64,000 nucleotides of DNA from assembly GCA_958295735.1 (NCBI GenBank), contig OY282369.1:1596161-1660160 (forward strand). The letters run 5' to 3'. Below are positions 411-57,403 of the stretch, in pieces. Within the stretch, counting starts at the first letter, position 1, and each line of letters opens with the position of its first letter. The DNA comes from an uncultured Candidatus Cenarchaeum sp. (GTDB taxonomy: Archaea; Thermoproteota; Nitrososphaeria; Nitrososphaerales; Nitrosopumilaceae). The notes under the pieces are model-generated. The model had not been told where the DNA came from and made no database searches. It worked only from the letters and a program-made list of their open reading frames with translations. Position numbers and translations under genes: made by a program.

Positions 411-1256
411 CTAGCCGTACGACTCGTCCTTTACCTCGAAACTGCCGTCGTCGCGCTTGTCCCGCATGGTGACGAAGCCCTTGGGCTTCAGGAAGTCCAT
501 CACGCCGTCGATGGTCCCCTGCCAGCCGCAGACGTAGAATATGGTGTTGTCCTTTGTGATCTTTTCGCCCACCAGCCTCTCCAGCGGGGAGATCTCGTCG
601 TACTTTGGCCTCAGGAACGTCTCGACGCGGCCCGTCTGCCCGCCCCACGAGCGGTTGAACCACTCCTGCGGCCTGCTTATCGTGGCCCTGTACCTGAAGT
701 TCCACTCGCCCTTCCCGCGGTCGATGCTGTCGTATTCCAGCCTCGTGAAGAGGTTCTTGTACGCGAGCTCGTCCACGTAGCTGGCCCCGTGCAGGACGAC
801 CACCTCCCTCTTGTCGCCCCGGGCGTGGAGGTGCTGCGCCATGCTCACGAACGGCGCTATCCCGGTCCCCCCGCCCATGCAGACGATCCTCCTCCCGTCG
901 GGGCTGCCGTCGGGCAGCTTTTCGTTCACGAGGAGCGCCATGCCGGTGGGGTTGAGCCACCCCACCTCGTCGCCTTCCCTTATGTTGAACAGCTCGGTGG
1001 TCAGGCGCCCCGGCACCGGCTTCCTGACCCACCTGATGAACAGCTCCACGTACTTGCGGTTCTCGGGGTGCGATGCGATGGAGTACGCCCTCCTGATGAT
1101 CTTGCCGTTCTCGCTCTTGACGGGGAGCCCCAGCGTGACGAACTGGCCCGCCTTGTACTGCGGGACCTCGCCCTCGGCGGGCACGAAGCGCATTACCATG
1201 AGATCCTCCTTGAGGAGCTGCACGTAGGTGACCCTTCCCTTTTTGTCTTGTACCAA
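411..1256 (-). CDS. Ferredoxin/flavodoxin-NADP reductase-like flavoprotein (paralogue 1)
   Basis: A 281-residue protein with the two-domain FNR fold. The N-terminal FAD-binding barrel carries RRAYSIAS (FAD-contacting RxYS). The C-terminal NAD(P)H-binding domain carries GGGTGIAPF and, near the end, the CGWQGTIDGV strand typical of FNR pyridine-nucleotide loops. It likely moves electrons between NAD(P)H and ferredoxin or flavodoxin in the cytoplasm. The start is TTG; a TATA-like ATTTAAG lies about 27 nt upstream, which fits a leaderless mRNA and explains the absence of a ribosome binding site. A close paralogue lies at 52887-53729. The C-terminus DESYG matches the YESYG end of that paralogue. 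Confidence 0.85.
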   Translation of the reverse strand: MVQDKKGRVTYVQLLKEDLMVMRFVPAEGEVPQYKAGQFVTLGLPVKSENGKIIRRAYSIASHPENRKYVELFIRWVRKPVPGRLTTELFNIREGDEVGWLNPTGMALLVNEKLPDGSPDGRRIVCMGGGTGIAPFVSMAQHLHARGDKREVVVLHGASYVDELAYKNLFTRLEYDSIDRGKGEWNFRYRATISRPQEWFNRSWGGQTGRVETFLRPKYDEISPLERLVGEKITKDNTIFYVCGWQGTIDGVMDFLKPKGFVTMRDKRDDGSFEVKDESYG

Positions 1257-4528: not shown

Positions 4529-5944
4529 ATGCCTTTCGCGATCAAGCCGCGGCTGATCAGGGACCTCGTCGTGCGGGTGATGGCCCGCGAGGGCACGACC
4601 GTGGCCCAGATAGAGGAGGCCAGGGGGCGCGTCTACGAGGGGGATGCGGGACAGGAGGCCTACCGGGATGAGCCCGTATGGCACACGAAGAAGGCTATAG
4701 ACGCGGCTGTGGCCGAGAAGCTCCGACTGAACGCCTCCGCGTGGGGACCGGACAGGAAGTCGAACGACTTCCAGACCTCCGTGTCGACGGCGCTGTCGGG
4801 GATGGCGCGCCGGGGCCAGACGGTGCCGTGGAACTCCGGCCGCCGCTATTCCATCTGGCGCCTGGAGCCGGCCGCGGCCGCGGCCGCGGCGGTAGCCCCC
4901 GCCCCCGACCTGTCGTCGCGGGAGGGGATCTTGAGCGCCGCCGCCGAGGCCCAGCCGGCGCCGGCTTCGGGGGAGGACATGATGAGGGAATTCTTGAGCA
5001 TACTGCGGCACGGGAACAAGGACAATACATACAAGTTCGCGCTGGCGAGGGCCCTGCTTGACTACAGCACGGGGCGCGGCAGCGACGGGGCGCTTGAGGT
5101 TCCCTACGAGTACTTGGCGGACAAGTTCTTGGAGTACTACTGGCACCAGGAATGCAAGCTTAGGCTCAAGCAGGACTCGCACAAGGCAAAGTCGCCCAAG
5201 GCGATCCAGGCGATACGGCGCGTCTGGGGCGCGAACACGCCCGGCAGCTTTGAGTTGCTCGACAACGAGGACAAGGCGGAGGCCCGCTCCATGATACTCA
5301 GGGACGTGTTCGGGCACGCGAGGAGCAAGACCTCGCTAGTGGTGCCGCGGTTCCAAAAGATCAAGCGCGGCGGCGTGCATGTAAAAGCGGACACGTTCTA
5401 CGACTACAGCGACGACGACCAGATGATCTGCCTGAAGCCCAAGGCGCTGGAGTTCCTCAGGGCCAACCACGTCGCGCTGCGGGGGCTAGTGACGCTGGAG
5501 TGGGCCAAGTTTCTGGAGGCAAAGAACCCATTGCTGCCCATGATGGTGGCTAAGGTAGAGAAGTACGAGGCCAGTAGGGGCTCTCTCGCGCCGGTGAGGC
5601 GCAGCTTGCTGGAGCACTCTTGCCACTGCTTTTACTGCCGCAGTCGCCTGGAGAGGCGGAGAACCGACGTTGACCACCTCATCCCATGGTCGTACATGTT
5701 CTCGGACAGCTGGTGGAACCTGGTCCTGGCGTGCCGGCGCTGCAACGGCAAAAAGAGCGACTCGTTGCCGCAGGACGAGTTCCTGGACTCCCTAGTGCGC
5801 AGGAACAGGCAGTACGAATACAGGGTAAAGCCGATCGGGGACTCGCTCGCCATGCTGAACGTCGGCCGCGGCTGGGAGACGGAGATCCGCGGGCATTACG
5901 ACACCTGCAGGGAGTACGGGTTTTGCGTGGTTAATCTTCCCTGA
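4529..5944 (+). CDS. HNH endonuclease domain protein
   Basis: 471 residues from ATG 4529, preferred over GTG 4511 because the TATA-like TTTTTTAAAT is centred about 31 nt upstream of the ATG. The C-terminal third is a Zn-bound HNH nuclease: CFYCRSRLERR, then DVDHLIPWS (catalytic DH) and NLVLACRRCNGKKS, so two CxxC pairs flank the beta-beta-alpha metal fold. The N-terminal about 110 residues look like a winged-helix region ending in YSIWRLEP, followed by a low-complexity Ala/Pro linker and a helical domain. This layout is common in stand-alone restriction-type nucleases. No methyltransferase is adjacent. The gene overlaps the convergent argH by 14 bp. Confidence 0.75.
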   Translation: MPFAIKPRLIRDLVVRVMAREGTTVAQIEEARGRVYEGDAGQEAYRDEPVWHTKKAIDAAVAEKLRLNASAWGPDRKSNDFQTSVSTALSGMARRGQTVPWNSGRRYSIWRLEPAAAAAAAVAPAPDLSSREGILSAAAEAQPAPASGEDMMREFLSILRHGNKDNTYKFALARALLDYSTGRGSDGALEVPYEYLADKFLEYYWHQECKLRLKQDSHKAKSPKAIQAIRRVWGANTPGSFELLDNEDKAEARSMILRDVFGHARSKTSLVVPRFQKIKRGGVHVKADTFYDYSDDDQMICLKPKALEFLRANHVALRGLVTLEWAKFLEAKNPLLPMMVAKVEKYEASRGSLAPVRRSLLEHSCHCFYCRSRLERRRTDVDHLIPWSYMFSDSWWNLVLACRRCNGKKSDSLPQDEFLDSLVRRNRQYEYRVKPIGDSLAMLNVGRGWETEIRGHYDTCREYGFCVVNLP

Positions 5945-7511
5945 CGGGGATACTACGCCGGCGGCCGGGCGCTTTCCCGGCGGGGCGCCGCTTCCGCCTC
6001 CCCGTTGCAGCGCCAGGCGGCCCGGCTATGCCGTTCACCGCATCGGCCAGCCCGTCCAGCGCCTCGTCGATGCCGCGGCGGCGGATCTCCGCCGACTCCC
6101 TGCGCTCGGCCAAGGAGGCCCGCCTCTCGCCCGCCATGCGCCGCTGCTCGGCGAACCCTGCGGAGCCCCGCGACGTCCTCCCGCGCAGCGAGCCGGCCGC
6201 GCTCAGGCCGCGGATCGCCTCCGCCAGCGCCCCCGCGTCGGCGCCGGTCCCCGCTACGGCCCTGCCTATGCGGGCGGCGTCCAGCCTGCCCAGCGGCATT
6301 CCCGCATCCTGCGCCTCCCGCACGAGCCGGCCGGCTATCCCGTGGGCCGCCCTGAACGGGACGCCGCCGGATACCAGCCGCTCCGCCACGTCCAGCGCCA
6401 TGATGTGGCCGCCACCGCCCCCCGATGCTGCCCTGCCCATGGCGCGCCCGTTGACAGTGATGCCGCGCAGCATCGACAGCATGGCGGCCAGCGCGCCGGA
6501 GGCCGCCCGCGCCGCAGACCAGACGGGCGGCTTGGTGTCCTGCAGGTCGCGCCCGTACCCCGTGGCCAGCCCCTTGCAGGCGGCGAGGACGGCCGTCAGG
6601 TCGCCGATGGTGCGCGCGGCCCTCCCCCGCGTGAGCTCCAGCAGGTCGGGGTTCTTCTTCTGCGGCATGACGCTCGACGGCGAGGACGCCCCGTCGGACA
6701 GCTCCAGGAACGAAAACTCCGCGCTGGACCAGATGACAAAGTCCTCGGCCATCCTGCTCAGGTTGGTCATGAGTATGGCCGCCGCCGCGGCGAACTCGGC
6801 CGCGAAGTCGCGCGTGCTCGTCGCGTCTATGGAGTTCTCCACCAGGCCGGAGAAGCCGAGGAGCGCGGCCGTCCGCGAGCGGTCTATGGGCAGGCCCGTC
6901 CCGCCGACCGGCCCCGCGCCCAGCGGGCTCTTGTTGGTCCTCTCGAACGCCCCGTCCAGCCTCTCCAGGTCCCTGAACAGGGCGTCGGCGTGGGCCAGCA
7001 TGTAGTGCGAGAACGTCCCGGGCTGGGCGCGCTGGAGGTGCGTGTACAGGGGCATGGCCGTCCCGGCGTGCTTTTCCGCGAGGTCGAGGAGGGCCCCGAT
7101 CACGTCCAGCAGCGAGCCGGATATCCCGATGATGTCGTCGCGCACCTTCATCCTGACGTCGAGCGCCACTTGGTCGTTCCGGGAGCGGGCCGTGTGCATC
7201 CTCCCGCCCGCCGCCGCCCCGGCCTCCCTGGCCACCAGCTCCTCGACTACCTCGTGCACGTCCTCGCCGGCCGATCCGCCGCCCGCCGCCGCGGCCTCCA
7301 GCTCCGCCACGATCCGCCCCTTGAGCCCCTCCAAGGCGGCCAGCACCCTGCGGGCGTGCGCCCTGCCCATTATTCCCGCCTCGTGCAGCATGACCACGTG
7401 AGCCTGGCTCCCGAGTATGTCGTATTCCGCAATGGCCGCATCCTCGGCGGCCGAGGAGACGTAGCCGAGGATCGCCTTGTCCAGATCGCCCCCCAGCCTG
7501 GCCCTATACAC
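5931..7511 (-). CDS. argH: Argininosuccinate lyase
   Basis: Splits argininosuccinate to arginine and fumarate, the last step of arginine synthesis. The fumarase/aspartase superfamily signature is GASSPSSVMPQKKNPD, with the catalytic Ser on the flexible loop. Also visible are HTARSRNDQVALDVR and the THLQRAQP motif. The true start is GTG 7511 (VYRARLGGD); the much longer upstream open frame is noise from the repeat array. At 526 residues it is somewhat longer than usual because of an Arg/Ala-rich C-terminal extension (from about residue 470) with little conservation expected. It shares a single symmetric TATA element with the divergent DUF59 gene. Confidence 0.92.
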   Translation of the reverse strand: MYRARLGGDLDKAILGYVSSAAEDAAIAEYDILGSQAHVVMLHEAGIMGRAHARRVLAALEGLKGRIVAELEAAAAGGGSAGEDVHEVVEELVAREAGAAAGGRMHTARSRNDQVALDVRMKVRDDIIGISGSLLDVIGALLDLAEKHAGTAMPLYTHLQRAQPGTFSHYMLAHADALFRDLERLDGAFERTNKSPLGAGPVGGTGLPIDRSRTAALLGFSGLVENSIDATSTRDFAAEFAAAAAILMTNLSRMAEDFVIWSSAEFSFLELSDGASSPSSVMPQKKNPDLLELTRGRAARTIGDLTAVLAACKGLATGYGRDLQDTKPPVWSAARAASGALAAMLSMLRGITVNGRAMGRAASGGGGGHIMALDVAERLVSGGVPFRAAHGIAGRLVREAQDAGMPLGRLDAARIGRAVAGTGADAGALAEAIRGLSAAGSLRGRTSRGSAGFAEQRRMAGERRASLAERRESAEIRRRGIDEALDGLADAVNGIAGPPGAATGRRKRRPAGKAPGRRRSIPVRED

Positions 7512-9777: not shown

Positions 9778-11495
9778 CAGTACCTCCTCTCCACCGGCTG
9801 GTACCGGGTTATGGTCACGGGGTGCTCCTTGAGTATGGGCTCCGCGGGATCGTAGTACGCCAGGGTGTGGTGCAGGAACCCGGCATCGTCCCTCTTGGGG
9901 TGGTCGGTCCTGGCGTGCGAGCCCCGCGACTCCTTCCTGTTTATGGCCCCCACCAGGATCACCTCGGCCGCGCGCAGCATCGAGTCAATCTCCATCACGT
10001 TGCAGAAGTTCGTGTTGTATTCCTTTGCCCTGTCGTCCACGTGCTTCCAGGCGCGCTTCTTGAGCTGCCTCACCCTCCTGAGGCCCTCGGCCAGGCCGGG
10101 CCCGTCCCTGTACACGTAGGCCTTTTCGTTCATCGTGTCGGTCAGCTCCTGCCTCACCTCGTACGGGTTGGCCCCCCCGCCCCCCCTGAATATGCCGTCG
10201 TAAATCCTCTTTTCCTCGTGGGCCACCAGGTGGTGCGGGAAGGGGGCCCCGCCGTCGCCGCCCCCCCTCTCTATGTACTCGGCGGCGAGCTCGCCGGTTA
10301 TCCTGCCCCACACCATGCACTCGGACGTGGAGTTGGCCCCGAGCCTGTTGGAGCCGTGGGTGCTGTTGCACGCCGCCTCGCCGGCCGCCCAGACACCGGC
10401 CAGCTCGGTGGCGCCGTCGATGTCCGTGTGGATGCCGCCCATCATGTAGTGGCAGACGGGCCTCACGTCCAGCACGTCCTCGGCGGGGTCGGCCCCCGAG
10501 AACTTTATGGAGATCTCCCGTATGCCCCCAAGCTTTTCCCTTATCATGTCGTCGCCCACGTGCCTCAGGTCCAGCCTCATGCAGTCCACGCCCGTCTCGT
10601 GCTTGAAGCCGCGGCCCTCGTTGATCTCGGTTATCATGGAGCGCGAGACGATGTCCCTCGGGGCGAGCTCCATCTTGCTCGGCGCGTACCTCTTCATGAA
10701 CCGCTCCCCCCTGCTGTTCAGCAGGTGGCCCCCCTCGCCCCTGGCGCCCTCCGTTATGAGTATGCCCGACGGCATTATCCCCGTGGGGTGGAACTGGACG
10801 AACTCCATGTCCTTCAGGGCCATCCCCGCCCTGTACGCCATGTCCAGCCCGTCGGGGGTCGACGAGTGGGCGTACGTGGAAAAGCTGTACAGCCTGCCGG
10901 CGCCCCCGGTGGCGATTATGAGGGCCTTGGCGCGCAGCACGTGGAACGTCCCCGTGGCGATCTCTATGGCCGTGAGCCCGTGGAACCTCTGCCCGTCGTG
11001 TATTATGGAGGTGGCGAACCACTCGTTGAGGTACTCTATGCCGTCGAACCCCTGGCAGGTGTCGTACAGGGTCTGCATCTCGTAGAACCCCACCTTGTCC
11101 GAGGCGTACGTGGCCCTCGGGTAGCTGTACCCGCCGAACGCCCGCTGGTCTATCCGGCCGTCCTTCCTCCTGGACCACGGCATGCCCCACTTGTCCAGCT
11201 GGCCTATCTGCGCGGGCATCTCGCTGCAGAGCCGCTCCGCCACGTCCTGGTCGGCCAGGAAGTCGCTGCCCTTCACGGTGTCGTACACGTGCGACTCCAC
11301 GGAGTCGCCTTCGTCCTGCGCTATGGCGGCCGCCGTCCCGCCCTCGGCCGAGACCGAGTGGGAGCGCATGACCTGCACCTTGGAGACGACCGCTATGCTG
11401 ATGCGGGGGCTCTTTTGGGCGGCCGATATGGCGGCCCGCAGTCCGGCCAGGCCAGAGCCGCATATGACCAGATCATACCTTATGGTCTCGACCAT
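9777..11495 (-). CDS. sdhA: Succinate dehydrogenase flavoprotein subunit
   Basis: 572 residues. It oxidises succinate to fumarate at the inner face of the membrane. Visible are the dinucleotide-binding start DLVICGSGLAGLRAA, the HSVSAEGGTAAA segment holding the His that covalently attaches FAD, the FVQFHPTGI and TEGARGEGG active-site strands, the catalytic-Arg region RDIVSRSM, and MGGIHTD near the C-terminal half. First gene of the sdhACDB operon. A TATA-like CATATTTACC lies about 30 nt upstream of the ATG, so the mRNA is probably leaderless or nearly so. Confidence 0.95.
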   Translation of the reverse strand: MVETIRYDLVICGSGLAGLRAAISAAQKSPRISIAVVSKVQVMRSHSVSAEGGTAAAIAQDEGDSVESHVYDTVKGSDFLADQDVAERLCSEMPAQIGQLDKWGMPWSRRKDGRIDQRAFGGYSYPRATYASDKVGFYEMQTLYDTCQGFDGIEYLNEWFATSIIHDGQRFHGLTAIEIATGTFHVLRAKALIIATGGAGRLYSFSTYAHSSTPDGLDMAYRAGMALKDMEFVQFHPTGIMPSGILITEGARGEGGHLLNSRGERFMKRYAPSKMELAPRDIVSRSMITEINEGRGFKHETGVDCMRLDLRHVGDDMIREKLGGIREISIKFSGADPAEDVLDVRPVCHYMMGGIHTDIDGATELAGVWAAGEAACNSTHGSNRLGANSTSECMVWGRITGELAAEYIERGGGDGGAPFPHHLVAHEEKRIYDGIFRGGGGANPYEVRQELTDTMNEKAYVYRDGPGLAEGLRRVRQLKKRAWKHVDDRAKEYNTNFCNVMEIDSMLRAAEVILVGAINRKESRGSHARTDHPKRDDAGFLHHTLAYYDPAEPILKEHPVTITRYQPVERRY

Positions 11496-47407: not shown

Positions 47408-48544
47408 GTGATCGGCAAGGACCCGTCAGTCACCGGCAAGGCGGCGCTGATGGGGACCGCCCCGGGGCGCAGCATCATAAAGCAGGGCCTGACAAAGTCC
47501 GCCGGCTACCGCATGTTCGAGCGGTACCGGGCGGAGTTCGAGCAGCGGCTCCCGCAGTTCCGCGACCGGTTCGCCGCCGGCCTGCTGGAGCGCATCCGCG
47601 CCGACCCCGACCCCGCCTCCACCCAGCGCGCGTTCGCCGCCGAGGTGGGCTCGGAGGGGATGGCGCTCGGCCCGGATGCGGCTGCCTCCGCCTCGTCCCG
47701 GCTCGGCGGCGATCCGGCGGCGCTGGCCGACCGCGTGAGCCGCATACTGGACTCCAACTTCGTGAAGATGACGTTCCCCGTGCTCAGCGCCCTGTACGAC
47801 GCGGCCGCGGCGGACCGCGGGGACGGGGGCGGCGGGGACGCAAAGTGGGACGCGGTGGAGGGGCACGTGCTGGCCATAGACCTGAGCGAGCCGATGGACA
47901 GGATAGCCGACGCCGACGAGGACCTGGAGTACCTTGACGACTACCGACTGATGAACCCGCACATACTGGCCATGGCCCGCGAGCGCATGGGGCGGGCCGG
48001 CCCCGGCGTGCTGGAGTCGTTCGAGGACGGGTTCGCCCGCGCCAGGGAGGGGCAGCGCCTGGACGTGGAGCTGAAATCGCGGCCGGCCGCGGCCACCTGC
48101 GACGAGATGGCCGCCTCGTACGCGAAGTACAGGGCGGTGATGGGGACGGCCGGCCGCAACATGGCGCTGGCCCGCGCGCCGCTCGGCGAGGTCTTCTACG
48201 TGGGGATGGCCGCGGCGGCCGAGTCCGTCGGGTGCGGGAACGAGATGGAGGACTCGCTGAAGGGCGGCAGCGTGAAGGTGCCGTCGTGGCCGCTGTACTA
48301 TACGGTGCTGGCCGGCGGCGACGTCGCGCGCGGGTTCGACCTGGCGCTGGAGCGGAGCATGCTGCACCTGGGCGAGGCCCGCATGGCCGCCTCGCTGCTC
48401 CCCGAGGGCTCTGCGCACAGGGACTACCTCGGGTTCCTGTTCCTCACCGTCGAGCACTACAACCGGTTCTGGCACGGCCGGCTGCGGGAAGAGGCGCCGT
48501 GGAAGGCGATGGCGGCCTCCCTGCCGGGGAGGGATCCGCCTTGA
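47408..48544 (+). CDS. Hypothetical protein upstream of rfcL
   Basis: 378 residues from GTG 47408, with a TATA-like CATAAATAA about 25 nt upstream. The sequence is largely helical and without membrane segments: GYRMFERYRAEFEQRLPQFR near the start, and a C-terminal part with WPLYYTVLAGGDVARGFDLA and LFLTVEHYNRFWHGRLREEA. I recognise no domain. Its stop overlaps the rfcL start (TGATG), so it is translationally coupled to the clamp loader large subunit and may serve replication or repair, which is inference from context only. Confidence 0.65.
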   Translation: MIGKDPSVTGKAALMGTAPGRSIIKQGLTKSAGYRMFERYRAEFEQRLPQFRDRFAAGLLERIRADPDPASTQRAFAAEVGSEGMALGPDAAASASSRLGGDPAALADRVSRILDSNFVKMTFPVLSALYDAAAADRGDGGGGDAKWDAVEGHVLAIDLSEPMDRIADADEDLEYLDDYRLMNPHILAMARERMGRAGPGVLESFEDGFARAREGQRLDVELKSRPAAATCDEMAASYAKYRAVMGTAGRNMALARAPLGEVFYVGMAAAAESVGCGNEMEDSLKGGSVKVPSWPLYYTVLAGGDVARGFDLALERSMLHLGEARMAASLLPEGSAHRDYLGFLFLTVEHYNRFWHGRLREEAPWKAMAASLPGRDPP

Positions 48545-49749
48545 TGTGGTCGGAAAAGCACAGGCCGGCGTCCCTGTCCGCGATGATGGGCAACGAGGAG
48601 GCCAGGGGGCAGCTCGCCGCCTGGCTGAAGGGCTGGCGCAAGGGGGCCAGGCCGGTCCTGCTCGTGGGCCCCCCCGGCACCGGCAAGACGACGGCGGCCT
48701 TCCTGGCCTGCGAGGCCTTCGGCTACGACATGGTGGGGCTCGACGCGAGCGACGCGCGCAGCCGCTCCCGCATAAGCGGGGTGCTGGGCCCGGTGATGGG
48801 GAACGCCGGCGTCTCCGGCCGCCCCGCGCTCATATTCGTCGACGAGGTCGACGGGATCCACGGCAGGGCCGACTTTGGGGGCGCCGAGGCGCTCCTCCGC
48901 CTGCTCAAGGAGCCGACCGTCCCGGTGATAATGGCCGCCAACTCTGACGCGTCGCCCAAGATGAAGTCCATAGAAAAGGCCTCCAAGACCCTGCGGTTCA
49001 GGCCGGTGCCCCCGCGCCTGCTGCGCGCCCACCTGCGGCGGGTGCTGCGCGAGGAAGGCGCGTCCCTCTCGCCCGGCACGGAGATCCGCACGGCGGAGGG
49101 GTGCGGCGGCGACATGCGCCGCATGCTCAACGCGGCCCAGTCGCTGGCGGCCGGCTTCGACATCCCCGCGGACGCGGGGCAGGGCATGCTCGACGCGCAG
49201 GCGGGCACGGATGCCTTTTTCGCGGCCGGCGACGCCGAGTCCGCGCTGGCCGCCCTGCGCGCCATGCGCATGGACCCGCGGGAAAAGATAGGCACGCTCT
49301 TCTCCGCGGTGGCCACGGCCCGCCTCCCCCCCGAGGCCGCGGCCCGCGCCATGGACGCCATATCGGAGGCCGACCTGCTGTACGGCCGCATACTGCGCAC
49401 CAAGCAGTGGCGCCTCCTCCGGTACATGGACGCGGCGCTGGCCGCCAAACTGCACCGCGCGACCCGCGGCGCCGGCGTCAGGTACGAGCGGTACGGCCTG
49501 CCCTGGCAGCTCCTCAACCGCATACGGTGGGACGGCAGGGCCGTGCGCTCCCTGTGCGGGGCGCTGGGCCGCCGGATGCACGCCTCGTCCTCCGAGTTCT
49601 CCACAGTATACCTCCCGTACCTGGCGTACATGGTGGGGGCGTGCGGGGCGGAGCCGCCCGACCTCTCCTCCGAGGGCGGCGACGGGGGGCAGGCGCTGGC
49701 GGCGGCGCTGGCAAAGGAGGCCGGCGCGCGCGGGGGGATGCCGCGGTGA
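48544..49749 (+). CDS. rfcL: Replication factor C large subunit
   Basis: 401 residues. AAA+ clamp loader: WSEKHRPASLSAMMGNEEAR, Walker A LLVGPPGTGKTTAA, Walker B LIFVDEVDGIHGR, sensor 1 MAANSDAS, and GCGGDMRRMLNAAQSLA (sensor 2). With the small RFC subunit it loads PCNA onto primed DNA. The C-terminus is shorter than in many archaeal RfcL and lacks an obvious PIP-box. ATG 48544 overlaps the upstream stop. The downstream zinc-binding protein begins inside its stop codon (GTGA). Confidence 0.92.
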   Translation: MWSEKHRPASLSAMMGNEEARGQLAAWLKGWRKGARPVLLVGPPGTGKTTAAFLACEAFGYDMVGLDASDARSRSRISGVLGPVMGNAGVSGRPALIFVDEVDGIHGRADFGGAEALLRLLKEPTVPVIMAANSDASPKMKSIEKASKTLRFRPVPPRLLRAHLRRVLREEGASLSPGTEIRTAEGCGGDMRRMLNAAQSLAAGFDIPADAGQGMLDAQAGTDAFFAAGDAESALAALRAMRMDPREKIGTLFSAVATARLPPEAAARAMDAISEADLLYGRILRTKQWRLLRYMDAALAAKLHRATRGAGVRYERYGLPWQLLNRIRWDGRAVRSLCGALGRRMHASSSEFSTVYLPYLAYMVGACGAEPPDLSSEGGDGGQALAAALAKEAGARGGMPR

Positions 49750-50126
49750 GCTGGATACCGCTCAAGATGAGGTTCCCGGGCACGTGCCTGGAATGCGGCA
49801 AGCGGGTCGCGATAGGGGAGCCGGGCCTGTGGAAAAAGGGGACCGGGGTAAAGCACGCGGCGTGCGCCCCCGAGGAGGGCCCCGCGGCCGGCCCCGCGCC
49901 GGGCGGCCCCCGCGAGCTGCGCTGCGCCGCGTGCGGGGGGCCGGCCGGGTGCCCCGCGTGCGAGCACGCCGACGCGTGCGACACGGAGGCCGTCTCGCAG
50001 CTGTGCATGTGCAAAAAGTGCATGGATGCGGACGATCCGGCATCCCTGTACCTGGAGTCGGTCGCCAAGAGGTCGCCGGCACTCGGGCCCGCCCGCCGGG
50101 CGCCGGGCCAGAGCCGGCTCGCGTGA
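49746..50126 (+). CDS. Small zinc-binding protein
   Basis: 126 residues from GTG 49746 (4-bp overlap with rfcL). It contains several Cys pairs: TCLECGKRV, CAACGGPAGCPACEHADAC and LCMCKKCMD, enough for two zinc sites. The first half (FPGTCLECGKRVAIGEPGLW) resembles PARP-like or topoisomerase-associated zinc ribbons that inspect DNA ends. The remainder is Pro/Gly-rich. Coupling to rfcL suggests a DNA-metabolism role, but no specific family is claimed. Confidence 0.65.
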   Translation: MSWIPLKMRFPGTCLECGKRVAIGEPGLWKKGTGVKHAACAPEEGPAAGPAPGGPRELRCAACGGPAGCPACEHADACDTEAVSQLCMCKKCMDADDPASLYLESVAKRSPALGPARRAPGQSRLA

Positions 50127-50365: not shown

Positions 50366-51007
50366 TTGTCCTCCGGCGGTGGTGGTGACGGTAGGGGGGG
50401 CGAGGCGGAAGCCGCCGCGCTGCCGGGCGAGGGGGCGCCGGCCGACAAGCTCCTCGCCGTAAAGGCCGCCGAGGCGGAGGCCGCCGCGTCGGCGGAGCGG
50501 CTCCACGCGGTGAAGGTGGCCGCCGACGCCGCCCTGGAGGAGGAGTACAAAAAGATAGCAAAGGAGCTCCCGGCGAAAAAGGAGCAGGACGCGTTCACCG
50601 ACTACCGCACGGGAGACATCATATTCCGGCGCGAGCTCGGCGAGCCCGAGTTCTGGCTGGACCGGAGGGCGCGCGGCCCGTCCGCCCTGGTGCTCACGGA
50701 CGAGCAGGCCAGGGAGATCTCGCGCATGGTGGAGATACCGGGCAACCAGCTCCCGCGGTACGACCCGCGCCACGTGCTCAGCAAGGAGTACGGCGGGACC
50801 TCGAGCTACGAGGCGGGCCTGAGCGGCATACGGGAGGAGACGCGGCGGGGGCTGGACGCCCTCCGGCGGTCGGGGGACGCGCCGGCGGCGGCCGTCCGGC
50901 AGGCCGAGGAGGATCTCGCAAAGCTGGACTACCTGTACGACAACTACCACGTGGGGATGAGCGTGTTCAGGTCGGCCAAGGGCGGCCGGGACAGGGCGAA
51001 AAAGTAG
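50366..51007 (+). CDS. Hypothetical protein upstream of the GluTR-like gene
   Basis: 213 residues from TTG 50366, about 28 nt after a TATA-like CCTTAAAATCC. The N-terminal 60 residues are a Gly/Ala-rich linker and a helix (EAEAAASAERLHAVKVAADA). The body includes FTDYRTGDIIFRRELGEPEF and DNYHVGMSVFRSAKGGRDRA. No domain is recognised. The stop is 9 bp before the GluTR-like gene, so the two are probably co-transcribed. Confidence 0.6.
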   Translation: MSSGGGGDGRGGEAEAAALPGEGAPADKLLAVKAAEAEAAASAERLHAVKVAADAALEEEYKKIAKELPAKKEQDAFTDYRTGDIIFRRELGEPEFWLDRRARGPSALVLTDEQAREISRMVEIPGNQLPRYDPRHVLSKEYGGTSSYEAGLSGIREETRRGLDALRRSGDAPAAAVRQAEEDLAKLDYLYDNYHVGMSVFRSAKGGRDRAKK

Positions 51008-51016
51008 GCGGCGGGC

Positions 51017-52090
51017 ATGGCGGGAGACGGGTTCGACGTGATCAACGCGGTGTTCACCTACAAGAACATCCCCCTGTACAAGCTGGCCAACTACTCCTTC
51101 AAGGACCCGAGGGCCGCGTACGCCGCGTTCCTCCGGGTGCCGGGCATCTCGGGGGTGGTGCTGGTGCAGACGGCGAGCCGCGTCGAGGCATACATGCTGG
51201 TGGTGAGGGAGCCGGACGCCCCGGACGCCCGCAGCGCCGAGGGCAAGGGCCTCACAATCAACCGCATCCGCGAGACGTGGATCTCGCTGGCCGGCCTGGA
51301 CGGGTACGACGTGGACCACTTCGACCAGACGCTGGAGGTGTACAGGAACGAGGAGGCATACGGGCGCCTGCTCCGGCTGGCCTCGGGCCTGGAGTCTGTG
51401 GTGGTGGGCAAGGCGGAGATCCTGCGCGAGATCAAGGCGTCCATAGAGACCTCCCGGGGGTTCGGCGCCTCCTGCCGCCAGCTGGACACCCTGTTCGACA
51501 CGGCGATCCTGGTAGCCGAGAAGATCCGCGACGCGACGGGCATAGGCGACAGCGTGCTCACCCTGGGCGACGTCGCGGTCAAGATGGCCGAGGAGGGCGC
51601 CGGGCTCGGGCCCAAGAAGAAGGTGCTGCTGGTCGGCACGGGGCAGTCCGCCGCCCTGGTGGCCAAGTCCCTCAACGCCGCGGGGCGCAGCTTTGACGTG
51701 GCCAGCAGGAGCCCGGAGCGGGCGGCCGGGTTCTCGCGCATACTGAAGGGGACGCCCGTCGAGTTCGCCGCCGCCCTGGCGGGGTTCGACAGGTACGACG
51801 TGGTGTTCGTGGCCACCACCGCCGACTACCACATACTGACCGACTCGCGCATACGGGGAGTGATGGAGGGCAAGAAGACCGGCACCATGGTCCTGGACAT
51901 ATCCGAGCCGCGGGCCGTCAACGAGAACGTCTCCTCCGTGCACGGCATAAAGCTCATGTTCCGCGACCAGATAGCGGAGCAGGAGGAGGAGAACCTCAAG
52001 ATCCGAACCGCCAAGATCCCGGAGGCAGAAAAGATGATCGACAAGGAGCTTCCCGTCGTGGCCGCCGTGATGTCCGGCTCCGCGGCCTAG
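51017..52090 (+). CDS. Glutamyl-tRNA reductase-like protein lacking the catalytic Cys
   Basis: 357 residues. Overall layout is that of HemA: an N-terminal catalytic-like domain (VVLVQTASRVEAYMLVV), a SGLESVVVGKAEILREIKA region, an AEKIRDATGIGDSVLTLGDV linker helix, an NADP-binding domain with VLLVGTGQSAALVAKSLNAA, and MVLDISEPRAV. The usual motif around the nucleophilic Cys is TCNR; here it is TASR. The His-containing segment before ASGL and the Glu of VxGExQI are also changed (RLLRLASGL, VVGKAEI). The protein may therefore not make glutamate-1-semialdehyde unless this lineage uses a variant mechanism. Confidence 0.75.
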   Translation: MAGDGFDVINAVFTYKNIPLYKLANYSFKDPRAAYAAFLRVPGISGVVLVQTASRVEAYMLVVREPDAPDARSAEGKGLTINRIRETWISLAGLDGYDVDHFDQTLEVYRNEEAYGRLLRLASGLESVVVGKAEILREIKASIETSRGFGASCRQLDTLFDTAILVAEKIRDATGIGDSVLTLGDVAVKMAEEGAGLGPKKKVLLVGTGQSAALVAKSLNAAGRSFDVASRSPERAAGFSRILKGTPVEFAAALAGFDRYDVVFVATTADYHILTDSRIRGVMEGKKTGTMVLDISEPRAVNENVSSVHGIKLMFRDQIAEQEEENLKIRTAKIPEAEKMIDKELPVVAAVMSGSAA

Positions 52091-52157: not shown

Positions 52158-52249
52158 GTGCAGACTTGCGCCCAAACCGAAGCCGCGCCCAGCGGCAACA
52201 AACCGCCCCCCGATTCCGCGCCCAGATCACGACGGACGTAAGTCTACAC
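52158..52249. mobile_element. 92-bp MITE-like element, copy B
   Basis: Ends GTGCAGACTTGCGCCC and GGACGTAAGTCTACAC. Flanking 8-mers are GCCGCGCA and GCCTCGCA (7 of 8 match). The length is identical to copies A and C. Confidence 0.85.
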
Positions 52250-52296: not shown

Positions 52297-52461
52297 ATGG
52301 TGCGCCTGCGTTGCTCCGACTATGGGTTCGAGTGCGACTTTGTGGCGGAGGGCGAGGTGGAGGGCGTCATAGATTCCTTCGGCTCGCACACCGAGGCAAA
52401 GCACGGCATCGACTATTCCCGCGAGTCGCTCATGCAGTTCATCGTAAGGCAAAAGGGCTAG
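52297..52461 (+). CDS. DUF1059-family small protein
   Basis: 54 residues: MVRLRCSDYGFECDFVAEGE, then EGVIDSFGSHTEAKHGIDYS and a SLMQFIVRQKG tail. The paired Cys near the start (RCSDYGFEC) and the H-x(3)-KHG pattern match the DUF1059 family, small putative zinc-binding proteins of unknown function. A TATA-like TTTTTATC lies about 25-30 nt upstream of the ATG. The last 15 codons are the founder unit of the array that follows. Confidence 0.78.
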   Translation: MVRLRCSDYGFECDFVAEGEVEGVIDSFGSHTEAKHGIDYSRESLMQFIVRQKG

Positions 52462-52865
52462 CGGGCTCCCGGCGGTTGCGCGGCATCGGCCATTCCCGCG
52501 GGCCGCTCATGCAGTTCATCGTAAGGCAAAAGGGCTAGCGGGCTCCCGGCGGTTGCGCGGCGCGGCATCGGCCATTCCCGCGGGCCGCCCGCGCAGTTCA
52601 TCGTAAGGCAAAAGGGCTAGCGGGCTCCCGGCGGTTGCGCGGCGCGGCATCGGCCATTCCCGCGGGCCGCCCGCGCAGTTCGCCGCAAGGCAGAATGCCC
52701 GGCGGGCTCCCGGCGGTTGCGCGGCGCGGCATCGGCCATTCCCGCGGGCCGCCCGCGCAGTTCGCCGCAAGGCAGAATGCCCGGCGGGCTCCCGGCGGTT
52801 GCGCGGCGCGGCATCGGCCATTCCCGCGGGCCGCCCGCACGGCCCGCCGCGGGGCAAAGGGGGCG
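52461..52865. repeat. 77-82-bp array that duplicates the 3' end of the DUF1059 gene
   Basis: Units begin at 52461, 52538, 52620, 52702 and 52784 with GCGGGCTCCCGGCGGTTGCG. The first two still carry the gene-end sequence TTCATCGTAAGGCAAAAGGG; later units drift to TTCGCCGCAAGGCAGAATGC. Divergence increases with distance from the gene. Confidence 0.93.
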
Positions 52866-52886: not shown

Positions 52887-53729
52887 CTACCCGTACGACT
52901 CGTACTTTATGGCGTAGCTGCCGTCGTCCTTTTTGTCGCGCATCGTGGCGAACCCCTTCTTTTCGACGTGGCCGATCACCCCGTCTATGGTGCCCTGGTA
53001 CCCGCAGATGTAGATCATCGTGTTGTCCGGGGTGATCTCCTCGCCCACCAGCTCCTCCAGGGGGGAGCGGCCGCCCTTTCCGGGCTTGAAGAACGACTCC
53101 ACCCTGCCCGTATGGCCCGTCCACGTGCGGTTGAACTTCTCCTTGGGCCTGCTGATGGCCGCCCTGTACTTGAAGTTCCACTCCCCGGGGCGCTCGGCGC
53201 TCTCGTACTCCAGCCCCGTAAAGTGCTCCTTGTAGCTGAGCTCGTCCACGTAGCTGGCCCCGTGCAGCACCACCACCTCCCTCCTGTCGCCCGCGTCGTG
53301 GAGGTGGTTCGCAAAGGCCACGAACGGCGCTATCCCCGTGCCGCCGCCCACGCACACTATCCTCCTCCCGTCGGGGCTCCCGTCGTGCAGCGCCTCGTTT
53401 ATGAGCAGGTCGTTGCCGGTGGGCATGCCCAGGTAGACGGTGTCGCCCTCGCTGGCGTAGAACAGCTCCGTGGTCACCCTGCCCGGGAGGGGCTTCCTGA
53501 CCCACCTTATGACGAATTCAAAGTACCTCTTGTTCTCGGGGTGGGATGCCAGCGAGTACGCCCTCCTGACCATCTTGTGGTTCTCCGCGGCCACGTGCAC
53601 GCCCACCGTGAGGAACTGGCCCGTCTTGTACGCGGGTATGGCGCCGTCCTCGGGAACTATCCGCAGTATCACAAGGTCCTCCCTGAGAAGCTCGATGTAG
53701 GTTATCTTGGCCTTGATCTCGGCGACCAC
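52887..53729 (-). CDS. Ferredoxin/flavodoxin-NADP reductase-like flavoprotein (paralogue 2)
   Basis: 280 residues from GTG 53729, chosen because a TATA-like CTATTTAAC lies about 27 nt upstream; the longer open frame runs through the promoter and a MITE. FAD motif RRAYSLASHPEN, NAD(P)-binding GGGTGIAPF and YICGYQGTIDGV are as in paralogue 1 at 411-1256, which it resembles along its whole length. It likely exchanges electrons between NAD(P)H and ferredoxin-type carriers. The two may serve different carriers or conditions; nothing in the sequence decides. Confidence 0.87.
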   Translation of the reverse strand: MVAEIKAKITYIELLREDLVILRIVPEDGAIPAYKTGQFLTVGVHVAAENHKMVRRAYSLASHPENKRYFEFVIRWVRKPLPGRVTTELFYASEGDTVYLGMPTGNDLLINEALHDGSPDGRRIVCVGGGTGIAPFVAFANHLHDAGDRREVVVLHGASYVDELSYKEHFTGLEYESAERPGEWNFKYRAAISRPKEKFNRTWTGHTGRVESFFKPGKGGRSPLEELVGEEITPDNTMIYICGYQGTIDGVIGHVEKKGFATMRDKKDDGSYAIKYESYG

Positions 53730-53795
53730 GGGCGGCGTTGCGCAACTTTGGTTAAATAGATTTCTGCAAACCGCTCGTGTGAGGTCACGTGCCCG

Positions 53796-53885: not shown

Positions 53886-53977
53886 GTGCAGACTTGCGTC
53901 CAAACCGAAACCGCGCCCGGCGGCAGCAATCCGCCCCGCGATCCCGCGCCCGGATCACAATGGACGCAAGTCTGCAC
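53886..53977. mobile_element. 92-bp MITE-like element, copy C
   Basis: Perfect 16-bp inverted ends GTGCAGACTTGCGTCC and GGACGCAAGTCTGCAC, flanked by GACCGCCC and AACCGCCC (7 of 8 match). The interior is similar to copies A and B. Confidence 0.9.
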
Positions 53978-54358: not shown

Positions 54359-55906
54359 GTGCATTCTGAAAAGCTCGACGAACATTCCCGCAAGGTTCGG
54401 TCCGCGCTGATGGGGGGAGGGCCCGACCGCGTGTCGGCCCAGCACGGGAAGGGAAAGCTCACGGCGCGCGAGAGGATAGGCCTGCTGCTCGACGAGGGCT
54501 CGTTCGTCGAGATGGACGCCCTGGTGACCCACCACTACCACGAGTTCGACATGCAGGGCAAAAAGTTCCACGGCGACGGCGTGGTGGGCGGGTACGGGAA
54601 GGTGGCCGGCAGGCAGGTCTTCGTGTACGCGTACGACTTTACCGTCCTGGGAGGCACGCTGAGCCAGATGGGCGCCAAGAAGATAACAAAACTGATGGAC
54701 CACGCGGTGAGGACGGGGTGCCCCGTGATAGGCGTGATGGACTCGGGCGGGGCGCGCATCCAGGAGGGGATACTGAGCCTCGACGGCTTTGCGGACATAT
54801 TCTACCACAACCAGCTCGCCTCGGGCGTGGTCCCGCAGATCACCGCCAGCATAGGCCCGTCGGCAGGCGGCTCGGTGTACTCGCCGGCGATGACCGACTT
54901 TGTGGTGATGGTGGAAAAGTCGGCCACTATGTTCGTGACGGGCCCCGACGTCGTCAAGACCGTCCTGGGCGAGGAGATCTCGTTCGAGGACCTGGGCGGG
55001 GCCGTCTCCCACGGCACGAGGAGCGGCGTGGCCCACTTCGTGGCCCGCAACGAGTACGACTGCATGGACTGCGTCAAGCGGCTCCTCTCGTTCGTCCCGC
55101 AGAACAACGCCGAGGACCCCCCCCGCGCGGCCTCGGACGACGACCCCGACCGCATCGACAACGGCCTGGCGGGGGTCATCCCCGAGAACCCGCTCCAGCC
55201 GTACGACGTGAAGGACATCATACGCTCGGTGGTGGACGACCGCGACTTTTTCGAGGTGCACGAGCTGTTCGCCCCGAACATAGCCGTCGGCTTCGCCAGG
55301 CTGGGCGGGGCCCCCGTGGGGGTGGTGGCCAACCAGCCGCTCCACCTGGCCGGCGCGCTGGACATCGACTCGTCCAACAAGGCGGCCCGGTTCATCCGGT
55401 TCTGCGACGCCTTCAACGTGCCCATAGTCACCATAGTGGACACGCCGGGCTACATGCCCGGCTCCAACCAGGAGCACAACGGGATAATACGCCACGGCAG
55501 CAAGCTCTTGTTCGCGTACTGCGAGGCCACCGTCCCCAAGATCACGCTGGTGGTGGGCAAGGCCTACGGGGGGGCCTACATCGCGATGGGCAGCAAGAAC
55601 CTGCGCACCGACGTGAACTACGCGTGGCCGACGGCCCGCTGCGCCGTGCTCGGGGCCGAGGCGGCCGTCCGCATAATCAACCGCAAGGACCTGGAGGCAT
55701 CGGCGGACCCCGAGGAGCTCAAGCGCGGCCTGATGGGCTCGTTCGCGGAAAAGTTCGACAACCCGTACGTGGCCGCCTCCCGCGGCACGGTGGACGCCGT
55801 CATCGATCCCGCCCGCACCCGGCCCATGCTGGTCGGGGCCCTCCGTATGCTGGAGGGGAAGCGCGACCGCCACCTGCCGCGCAAGCACGGCAACATAAAC
55901 CTGTGA
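54359..55906 (+). CDS. Acetyl/propionyl-CoA carboxylase, carboxyltransferase subunit
   Basis: 515 residues from GTG 54359 (TATA-like AATAATATAGG about 29 nt upstream). The carboxyltransferase signatures include GKLTARERIGLLLDEGSF, MDSGGARIQEG, the oxyanion-hole GPSAGGSVYSP, VDTPGYMPG and GKAYGGAYIAMGSKNL. It moves CO2 from biotin to acetyl-CoA or propionyl-CoA. In Thaumarchaeota this is the carbon-fixing enzyme of the 3-hydroxypropionate/4-hydroxybutyrate cycle and accepts both substrates. It is first in an operon with biotin carboxylase and carrier protein. Confidence 0.93.
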   Translation: MHSEKLDEHSRKVRSALMGGGPDRVSAQHGKGKLTARERIGLLLDEGSFVEMDALVTHHYHEFDMQGKKFHGDGVVGGYGKVAGRQVFVYAYDFTVLGGTLSQMGAKKITKLMDHAVRTGCPVIGVMDSGGARIQEGILSLDGFADIFYHNQLASGVVPQITASIGPSAGGSVYSPAMTDFVVMVEKSATMFVTGPDVVKTVLGEEISFEDLGGAVSHGTRSGVAHFVARNEYDCMDCVKRLLSFVPQNNAEDPPRAASDDDPDRIDNGLAGVIPENPLQPYDVKDIIRSVVDDRDFFEVHELFAPNIAVGFARLGGAPVGVVANQPLHLAGALDIDSSNKAARFIRFCDAFNVPIVTIVDTPGYMPGSNQEHNGIIRHGSKLLFAYCEATVPKITLVVGKAYGGAYIAMGSKNLRTDVNYAWPTARCAVLGAEAAVRIINRKDLEASADPEELKRGLMGSFAEKFDNPYVAASRGTVDAVIDPARTRPMLVGALRMLEGKRDRHLPRKHGNINL

Positions 55907-55912
55907 CCGGCG

Positions 55913-57403
55913 ATGATAGAGAAGGTGCTGGTAGCCAACCGCGGGGAGATAGCCCTGCGCGTGATCCGCACGTGCAGGGCCCTGGGCGTGCGCACGGTGG
56001 CCGTCTATTCCGACGAGGACGCCAACGCGCTGCACGCGAAAAAGGCCGACGAGTCGTACCGCATAGGCGAGGCGGCGCCGGCCCGCTCGTACCTGGACCA
56101 GGACCGCATACTGGAGGCGGCCGCCTCGTCGGGCGCCGACGCCGTGCACCCCGGGTACGGCTTCCTGTCCGAGAACGACGAGTTCGCCCTGCGGTGCGAA
56201 AAGGGCGGGATAAACTTCATCGGCCCCCCGTCCGGATCCATGCGGCTGTGCGGCGACAAGATGGAGTGCAAGGCGGCCATGCTGGCCGCCGGGGTCCCGA
56301 CGGTCCCGGGCAGCCCCGGCCTCGTGGGGGACGCGGACGAGGCGGCCGGGATCGCGGCAGAGATAGGGTACCCCGTGCTGCTAAAGTCCGTCTACGGCGG
56401 CGGGGGCCGCGGCATACGGCTGGCCGCGGCCGAGGCGGAGCTGCGCTCCGCGTACGACACGGTCACGGCCGAGTCCATATCGGCCGTCGGCAAGTCGGCC
56501 ATACTCGTGGAGAAGTTCCTGGAAAAGACGCGCCACATAGAGTACCAGATGGCGCGCGACGAGCGCGGCGGGACCGTCCACATATTCGAGCGGGAGTGCT
56601 CCATACAGAGGCGCAACCAGAAGCTCATAGAGCAGACGCCCTCCCCGGCGGTCGACCCGGAGACCCGCGAGCGGGTGGGCGCGCTGGTCGTCAAGGCCGC
56701 CGAGGCGGTCGGGTATTCCAACTTGGGCACCGCCGAGTTCCTGCGCGCCGACACGGGCGAGTTCTACTTCATCGAGATCAACGCGCGCCTGCAGGTGGAG
56801 CACCCCATCACGGAGATGGTCTCGGGGCTCGACCTCGTGAAGCTGCAGCTGGACATAGCCAACGGCGAGCCGCTCCCGTTCTCGCAGGCGGACCTGAAAA
56901 TGAACGGCTGCGCCATAGAGTGCCGGATAAACGCCGAGGACACGTTCCTGGACTTCGCGCCGTCCACGGGGCCGGTCCCCGACGTCACCATACCGTCGGG
57001 GCCGGGCGTGCGATGCGACACGTACCTGCACCCCGGCTGCGCCGTCTCCCCGTTCTACGACTCGCTGATGGCCAAGCTGTGCACGTGGGGGCAGACCTTC
57101 GAGGAGTCCAGGCTGCGCATGCTGGCCGCGCTCGGCGACTTTTACGTGCGGGGCGTCGAGACGTCCATACCCCTGTACAGGACCATACTGCGCACCGAGG
57201 AGTACCGCGAGGGCCGCCTCTCGACGGACTTCCTGAAGAGGTACGGCATCATAGGGAGGCTGGAGGCCGACATGAGGGCGGAGCGCGGGGCGGCCCGGGA
57301 GGCGGCCGCCGTCGCGGCGGCCCTCCGCCTGGAGCTGGCCGCCGCCGCGGCGGCGGAGGGGGCGCGGGACCGGTCGGGCTGGAGGAGGGGGCTGGGCCCC
57401 TAG
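55913..57403 (+). CDS. accC: Biotin carboxylase subunit of acyl-CoA carboxylase
   Basis: 496 residues. Biotin-carboxylase landmarks: KVLVANRGEIALRVIRTCRA, HPGYGFLSENDEFA, the ATP-grasp Gly loop SVYGGGGRGIRLA, RECSIQRRNQKLIEQTPSP, and EINARLQVEHPITEMVSGLD with the catalytic Glu/Arg residues. It carboxylates biotin with bicarbonate and ATP. The C-terminal about 50 residues are an Ala/Glu/Arg-rich extension. It starts 6 bp after the carboxyltransferase stop. Confidence 0.94.
   Translation: MIEKVLVANRGEIALRVIRTCRALGVRTVAVYSDEDANALHAKKADESYRIGEAAPARSYLDQDRILEAAASSGADAVHPGYGFLSENDEFALRCEKGGINFIGPPSGSMRLCGDKMECKAAMLAAGVPTVPGSPGLVGDADEAAGIAAEIGYPVLLKSVYGGGGRGIRLAAAEAELRSAYDTVTAESISAVGKSAILVEKFLEKTRHIEYQMARDERGGTVHIFERECSIQRRNQKLIEQTPSPAVDPETRERVGALVVKAAEAVGYSNLGTAEFLRADTGEFYFIEINARLQVEHPITEMVSGLDLVKLQLDIANGEPLPFSQADLKMNGCAIECRINAEDTFLDFAPSTGPVPDVTIPSGPGVRCDTYLHPGCAVSPFYDSLMAKLCTWGQTFEESRLRMLAALGDFYVRGVETSIPLYRTILRTEEYREGRLSTDFLKRYGIIGRLEADMRAERGAAREAAAVAAALRLELAAAAAAEGARDRSGWRRGLGP

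Follow-up and report, generated by a model that had tools for sequence, protein, structure and literature searches.

What does a protein with the fold of glutamyl-tRNA reductase (GluTR, HemA) do when the Cys that carries the reaction is missing? An open reading frame at 51017..52090 (+ strand, 357 aa, ATG start) raises this question in the window, i.e., the whole 64,000-nucleotide stretch of DNA analyzed here. The available part of PMC3778395 gives Cys48 as the attacking residue of GluTR and the nucleophilic Cys as the only one conserved in all the GluTRs aligned there, and the available part of PMC6399207 has the enzyme acting by a thioester mechanism. A preliminary description, made from the window's letters, had noticed that the TCNR motif reads TASR in this frame and allowed two explanations: either the lineage has a canonical hemA elsewhere and this gene is a repurposed paralogue, or its GluTR works without the thioester Cys.

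A GluTR fold below the HemA cut-off

The product of 51017-52090 belongs, as a variant form, to the established fold family of GluTR (HemA, TIGR01035/PF05201). It exceeds the Pfam gathering score for GlutR_N (82.1 bits against a cut-off of 27), it also matches Shikimate_DH at 66.6 bits, and its closest solved structures by sequence are the GluTRs of Methanopyrus kandleri (1gpj, 3.4e-36) and Arabidopsis (4n7r, 2.2e-17). Structure prediction gave a confident model (pLDDT 87.4, pTM 0.81), and its best PDB match is 1gpj (Z 25.6, 322 residues aligned, rmsd 7.7), with 4n7r at Z 24.2; as modelled, the fold of both the catalytic and the NAD(P) domains is present, and the rmsd of 7.7 would be expected if the domains stand at a different angle. 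The likeness to shikimate/quinate dehydrogenase and other NAD(P) Rossmann families (PF01488, dipicolinate synthase A) is confined to the NAD(P) domain, whereas the catalytic domain is of the GluTR type, though with an insert in the N domain relative to GluTR. The C-terminal dimerisation domain has no Pfam match in the window protein, which ends at 357 aa. Judged by length, the region is missing from 63 of 80 relatives (the best 80 of 146), and the other 17, at 410–429 aa, may retain it.

For the hemA equivalog (TIGR01035) the cut-off is 209.55 bits. The window copy falls short of it at 163.3 bits, as do the three further paralogues scored (174.8, 201.0 and 191.4 bits), whereas the three canonical copies scored reach 300.6, 335.2 and 346.5 bits.

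A canonical hemA elsewhere in the same genome

The genome from which the window comes is a single contig of 3.17 Mb, 96.75% complete. Searching it with the window protein gives two matches, including a canonical HemA at G000:C1:441275-442288 (L002), which has the loop QTCNRVE, is 41% identical to the window protein over residues 2–353 and, at 300.6 bits, is the first of the three passing copies above. It is flanked by a cysG_Nterm gene (siroheme-synthase N-terminal domain) and by hemB (porphobilinogen synthase), which it adjoins, so that the search for a second copy near hem genes proposed in the preliminary description did find one. Homologues of both flanking genes lie near the canonical copies in all 18 loci fetched with wide flanks, whereas neither was found at any of 16 paralogue loci, some of them on short contigs, or at the window. 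Of the two copies in this genome, then, only the canonical one carries the QTCNRVE loop and stands among hem genes. Canonical copies aligned from paralogue-bearing genomes tell the same story, the Cys being present in 15 of the 15 aligned from such genomes.

Because the genome carries a canonical hemA, the window gene is a paralogue and is neither the only nor the canonical GluTR of the cell. The first of the two explanations is thus supported, and the second, a GluTR that dispenses with the Cys, becomes unlikely.

Residues lost, kept and gained

Residues were counted in 81 paralogues (the window protein and the best 80 of 146 relatives) and in 28 canonical HemA rows. The 80 paralogue loci were found with patterns that cover the motifs DHFDQ and VATT(A/S)DY and not the loop, and the counts for these two motifs are therefore partly selected.

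The loop of the window protein is QTASRVE, and A53 aligns to the Cys48 position of M. kandleri GluTR, at which the crystallised chain in 1gpj has Ser. The substitution of TASR for TCNR therefore stands, and so do the altered surroundings of the usual His and Glu that had been reported with it: R117 occupies the position of His84, K132 that of the Glu of GE-x-Q and E134 that of its Gln. Across the 81 paralogues, Cys at position 53, Asn at 54, Glu at 132 and Gln at 134 are each found in 0/81, against 28/28 of the canonical rows; Gln at 138 is found in 4/81 against 28/28, and His at 117, the column of M. kandleri His84, in 51/81 against 28/28, the remaining paralogues having N (23), R (5) or P (2). 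The loop Cys is equally absent from a sample chosen without motif selection (0/16 loop-covering paralogues from a search of 41 genomes). A chance or frameshift origin of TASR was rejected, because the loop change is common to all relatives and the reading frames are open. We likewise rejected a substitute Cys nearby: the window protein has V at position 47, the sole position with a widely conserved Cys (80 of the 81).

What has been kept is part of the loop and the NAD(P) domain. Q51, R55 (aligned to Arg50 of 1gpj), E57 and both glycines of the NAD(P) loop are retained throughout the 81 paralogues as in the canonical rows, so that the family shares with GluTR the loop residues Q, R and E and the GxG motif. 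The NADP domain had been described as intact and is so in the window copy, which has a GTG motif and R231. This Arg, presumably the contact to the NADP 2'-phosphate, is present in 28/28 canonical rows, and 32 of the 81 paralogues have M, K or L in its place; members of the family may therefore differ in how they use the cofactor.

New invariant residues have been fixed as well. H101, D103, Q104 and D270 are found in 81/81 paralogues (window and best 80 of 146) and are absent or rare in the canonical rows, 27 of 28 of which have P at position 270; D70, R72 and W88 are also found in 81/81. The first four belong to the motifs D100-H-F-D-Q104 and ATTAD270Y of the window protein (DHFDQ and ATT(A/S)DY in the family, neither of them a GluTR motif), and they recur in 14/14 paralogue rows of an alignment (A1) whose members were found by whole-protein similarity.

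Distribution, phylogeny and selection

Sampling combined the search of 41 genomes with a scan of species genomes, from which the best 80 of 146 relatives were taken. With presence set at 279 bits or more for the paralogue and above 200 bits for the long form of its partner (see below), thresholds that may overlook fragmentary genes in low-quality assemblies, the Cys-less paralogue is present in 78 of 121 genomes of the family Nitrosopumilaceae. The records that carry it include ones labelled Nitrosopumilus, Nitrosarchaeum, Nitrosotenuis and Nitrosopelagicus, and it is retained in a genome of 1.23 Mb (G019). Many complete genomes of the family lack it (e.g., G005, G008, G022, G049, G059 and G073). 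In genera g2 and g17 some genomes have it and others do not, and horizontal transfer may have contributed to its spread.

A tree of 42 rows, built without three partial paralogue rows, unites the 14 paralogues in a single clade (support 100/100). This clade nests among the HemA rows of the Nitrosopumilaceae and has a stem length of 0.70; because the stem branch is long, the exact placement of the clade within canonical HemA is uncertain. The clade is under purifying selection: over 1059 paralogue pairs with dS of 0.15–1.2, the median dN/dS is 0.17 (range 0.02–0.59). In one genome (G007; L046, L047) two paralogue fragments at contig ends overlap by ~120 residues with a few differences, and could be strain variants or two copies.

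A helical partner, long and short

Nine base pairs before the paralogue ends a gene on the same strand at 50366..51007, which encodes 213 aa if translation starts at the TTG at 50366; this start is uncertain, and the mechanical open reading frame opens at 49784. The window copy has a helix at residues 26–67, the segment IFRRELGEPEF and a C-terminal helical hairpin at 147–212, corresponding in the family to an Ala-rich N-terminal helix, IFRREMGEPEF and a hairpin ending GMNVFRTAKGGR. Pfam has no family for 50384-51004 at E<=10, a homologue from another locus (L043) gives only chance-level matches in Pfam and NCBIfam (E 0.1 or worse), and a fold search of the PDB found nothing at E<=0.001, a weak search since the model's pLDDT is 71.

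This partner is inherited with the paralogue. It is adjacent and on the same strand in 80/80 loci (the best 80 of 146), at a gap of -4 to 20 bp, and in 15/17 of a first set of loci, the contigs of the other two (L038, L046) stopping short upstream. Among the 121 genomes of the family, 77 have both the paralogue and the long partner and 42 have neither; one, 60% complete, has only the paralogue and one, 68% complete, only the long partner.

The C-terminal part of the partner can also be encoded by itself. This short form, of 89–193 aa, is found mostly in paralogue-free genomes: it is present in 35 of the 42 genomes with neither gene, and the eight genomes with long and short forms together are all of genus g17. 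The short form belongs to a family of small proteins of ~70–190 aa with the pattern SNYExG...GMNVFRTAKGGR, and the members scanned have no Pfam match. The short form is found in four families of archaea, which we take to be ammonia oxidisers. In genomes of family f10 a weak homologue of it (E 1e-4 to 5e-7; L184, L185, L188) lies close to a gene for ornithine cyclodeaminase/mu-crystallin, an NAD(P) Rossmann protein according to Pfam runs on L184 and L188.

The setting beside the carboxylase genes

Downstream of the paralogue, on the same strand, lie pccB, the carboxyltransferase subunit of acyl-CoA carboxylase, at 54359..55906 (its start inferred from relatives of 515 aa; the mechanical frame starts at 53789), and accC, biotin carboxylase, at 55913..57403 (coordinates from offsets). 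Upstream, an ORF resembling the large subunit of replication factor C (RfcL, 48232..49749, + strand) belongs to the conserved synteny and stands outside the module. The order in the window is thus RfcL, zinc finger, partner, paralogue, a flavoreductase gene on the opposite strand (FNR2), pccB and accC.

The loci with the short form have much the same neighbours. Of 17 such loci, three of which come from g17 genomes or close relatives, 15 have pccB immediately downstream in the same orientation, with accC and then the biotin carrier gene behind it; the two without pccB are contigs of 3.6 and 3.2 kb. Most also have the replication factor C large subunit and zinc-finger genes upstream. Given the gene order in the window, the paralogue and FNR2 sit between old neighbours. 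In families f2, f3 and f8 pccB is within a few kb of the short form at 12 of 13 loci, and at three f10 loci it is not near the homologue. The small family precedes acetyl/propionyl-CoA carboxylase genes in families f1, f2, f3 and f8. Its members are a candidate accessory subunit of this carboxylase, and a search of the open-licence literature found no paper on such a small subunit.

The paralogue is not always beside the carboxylase. At five loci (L035, L039–L041, L043) the partner and paralogue stand together several kb from pccB. At one locus (G017, L044) a partner–paralogue–FNR2 cassette is bracketed by two copies of a gene encoding a protein of 318–319 aa (5568-6527 and 9816-10772), as if inserted or duplicated there.

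A duplicated flavoreductase

FNR2, a FAD/NAD(P) oxidoreductase (PF00970 and PF00175) at 52890..53723 on the - strand, is convergent with the paralogue and, being on the opposite strand, does not form one transcript with it. It is a duplicate: the second FNR copy of the genome, FNR1, lies at 414..1241 of the window, also on the - strand (G000:C1:1596574-1597401), and is 65% identical to it. At least two FNR copies are present in 66 of the 78 paralogue genomes and one only in the other 12, against one in 38, none in three and two in two of the 43 paralogue-free genomes. The two last (G130, G135; 84% and 78% complete) each contain a second hemA-like match.

A tree of 44 FNRs groups 14 of 15 paralogue-adjacent copies in a clade (100/99) that also includes three copies, from G091, G097 and G103, situated far from the paralogue or on another contig. 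Since these three are unlinked, the co-inheritance of FNR2 with the paralogue is not only a matter of linkage. The one paralogue-adjacent copy on the FNR1 side is from G007, a fragmentary assembly. Inheritance of the paralogue is thus coupled to that of the helical protein next to it and, in most genomes, to that of a second FNR.

What the paralogue may do

The reading we prefer, to which we give a probability of roughly 0.55, is that a hemA duplicate has taken on a new function as an NAD(P)-binding protein and is most likely a redox enzyme that works without covalent catalysis. With Cys, Asn, Glu and Gln missing, attack on the tRNA ester and formation of a thioester intermediate are impossible by the known route, and the intact NAD(P) domain combined with fixed new polar residues makes a non-covalent NAD(P)-dependent oxidoreductase the most economical interpretation. 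A gene that has lost these residues and yet is kept with two partner genes probably has a new job. The duplicate would have arisen at the root of the Nitrosopumilaceae or close to it, been stripped of its covalent (thioester) chemistry and then been repurposed. Its product could serve as the NAD(P)-binding subunit in a small complex, where it would be anchored by the N-terminal extension of the partner, a fixed helical companion that GluTR does not have. A small carboxylate-bearing substrate may be held by R55 and reduced, oxidised or sensed; hydride transfer would be direct, with H101 and D103 as putative new acid/base groups and FNR2 as a possible redox neighbour. The C-terminal hairpin of the partner may retain the ancestral role of the small protein beside the acetyl/propionyl-CoA carboxylase, in which case the work of the paralogue is plausibly linked to carboxylase metabolism, the link being one of gene order only. 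The hairpin could perhaps also position the complex close to that enzyme.

The main rival is a pseudoenzyme: a non-catalytic sensor of NAD(P)H or of glutamate/tRNA that, via the helical partner, regulates HemA or the acyl-CoA carboxylase. The loss of the four catalytic residues would be natural for such a protein, the variable His position and the replacement of R231 also fit a non-enzymatic role, and near-obligate co-occurrence with an adaptor-like helical protein is what a regulator might show. However, H101, D103, Q104, D270, R55 and E57 are invariant in 81/81 paralogues (window and best 80 of 146), which beside an NAD(P) fold that is predicted to be intact looks like a working site, and the lack of the C-terminal dimerisation region in 63/80 (best 80 of 146) speaks against ordinary heterodimers with HemA. 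We consider the sensor possible but somewhat doubtful.

A second rival, which we think improbable, has the paralogue as a CoA-thioester reductase of the carbon-fixation cycle, acting on malonyl-CoA or succinyl-CoA. We know of no thaumarchaeal enzyme identified for either of these reduction steps, the module sits by carboxylase genes, and the chemistry of GluTR is itself the reduction of an acyl group to an aldehyde. The patchy distribution weakens this idea, since many complete Nitrosopumilaceae genomes, which would be expected to operate this cycle too, do not have the gene. The steps themselves exist, and two archaeal versions of them use mutually non-homologous enzymes, according to the available parts of PMC7845616 and PMC8287830.

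More improbable still is a true GluTR that reduces the tRNA ester directly. The fold and the retained R55 and E57 would suit it, but the same genome has a Cys-bearing hemA adjoining cysG_N and hemB, neither of which is beside the paralogue, all four paralogues scored fall under the equivalog cut-off, and the signature Glu and Gln are lost in 81/81 (window and best 80 of 146). A decaying duplicate without function, which the long stem (0.70) and lost catalytic residues might have suggested, is hardly credible, being already contradicted by the dN/dS values, the intact frames and the retention in 78/121 genomes, the 1.23-Mb one included.

Returning to a redox function, the broadest version of it would be a three-part module made of a GluTR-derived NAD(P) protein that dispenses with covalent catalysis, an adaptor derived from a carboxylase-neighbour protein and a duplicated flavoreductase, i.e., three existing genes duplicated or extended. 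This is a long shot, as is the placing of its evolution in marine ammonia-oxidising archaea. No description of the three genes as a module was found in the open-licence papers searched, and a Cys-less GluTR paralogue is not described in the available parts of PMC3004389 and PMC11237513.

The Nitrosopumilaceae are among the most abundant archaea of the ocean. Annotation likely labels the paralogue 'glutamyl-tRNA reductase' in their genomes, though the known GluTR mechanism is not possible for it; a hemA match need not mean a GluTR. The partner family has no Pfam name, and its short form occurs, beside the carbon-fixation carboxylase, in four families; the module offers defined targets in asking which unassigned proteins serve energy-efficient archaeal carbon fixation.

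Repeats around FNR2

Between the paralogue and FNR2, at 52404-52838, the window has a tandem repeat with a unit of 82 bp (5.4 copies, 94% matches), and the mechanical open reading frames within it are translations of the repeat. The FNR2 region is flanked by two dispersed copies of a 92-nt direct repeat, at 52158-52249 and 53886-53977, with 87% identity between them; the ends of the repeat, GTGCAGACTTGCG ... GCAAGTCTGCAC, are near-inverse, and it looks like a small mobile intergenic element.
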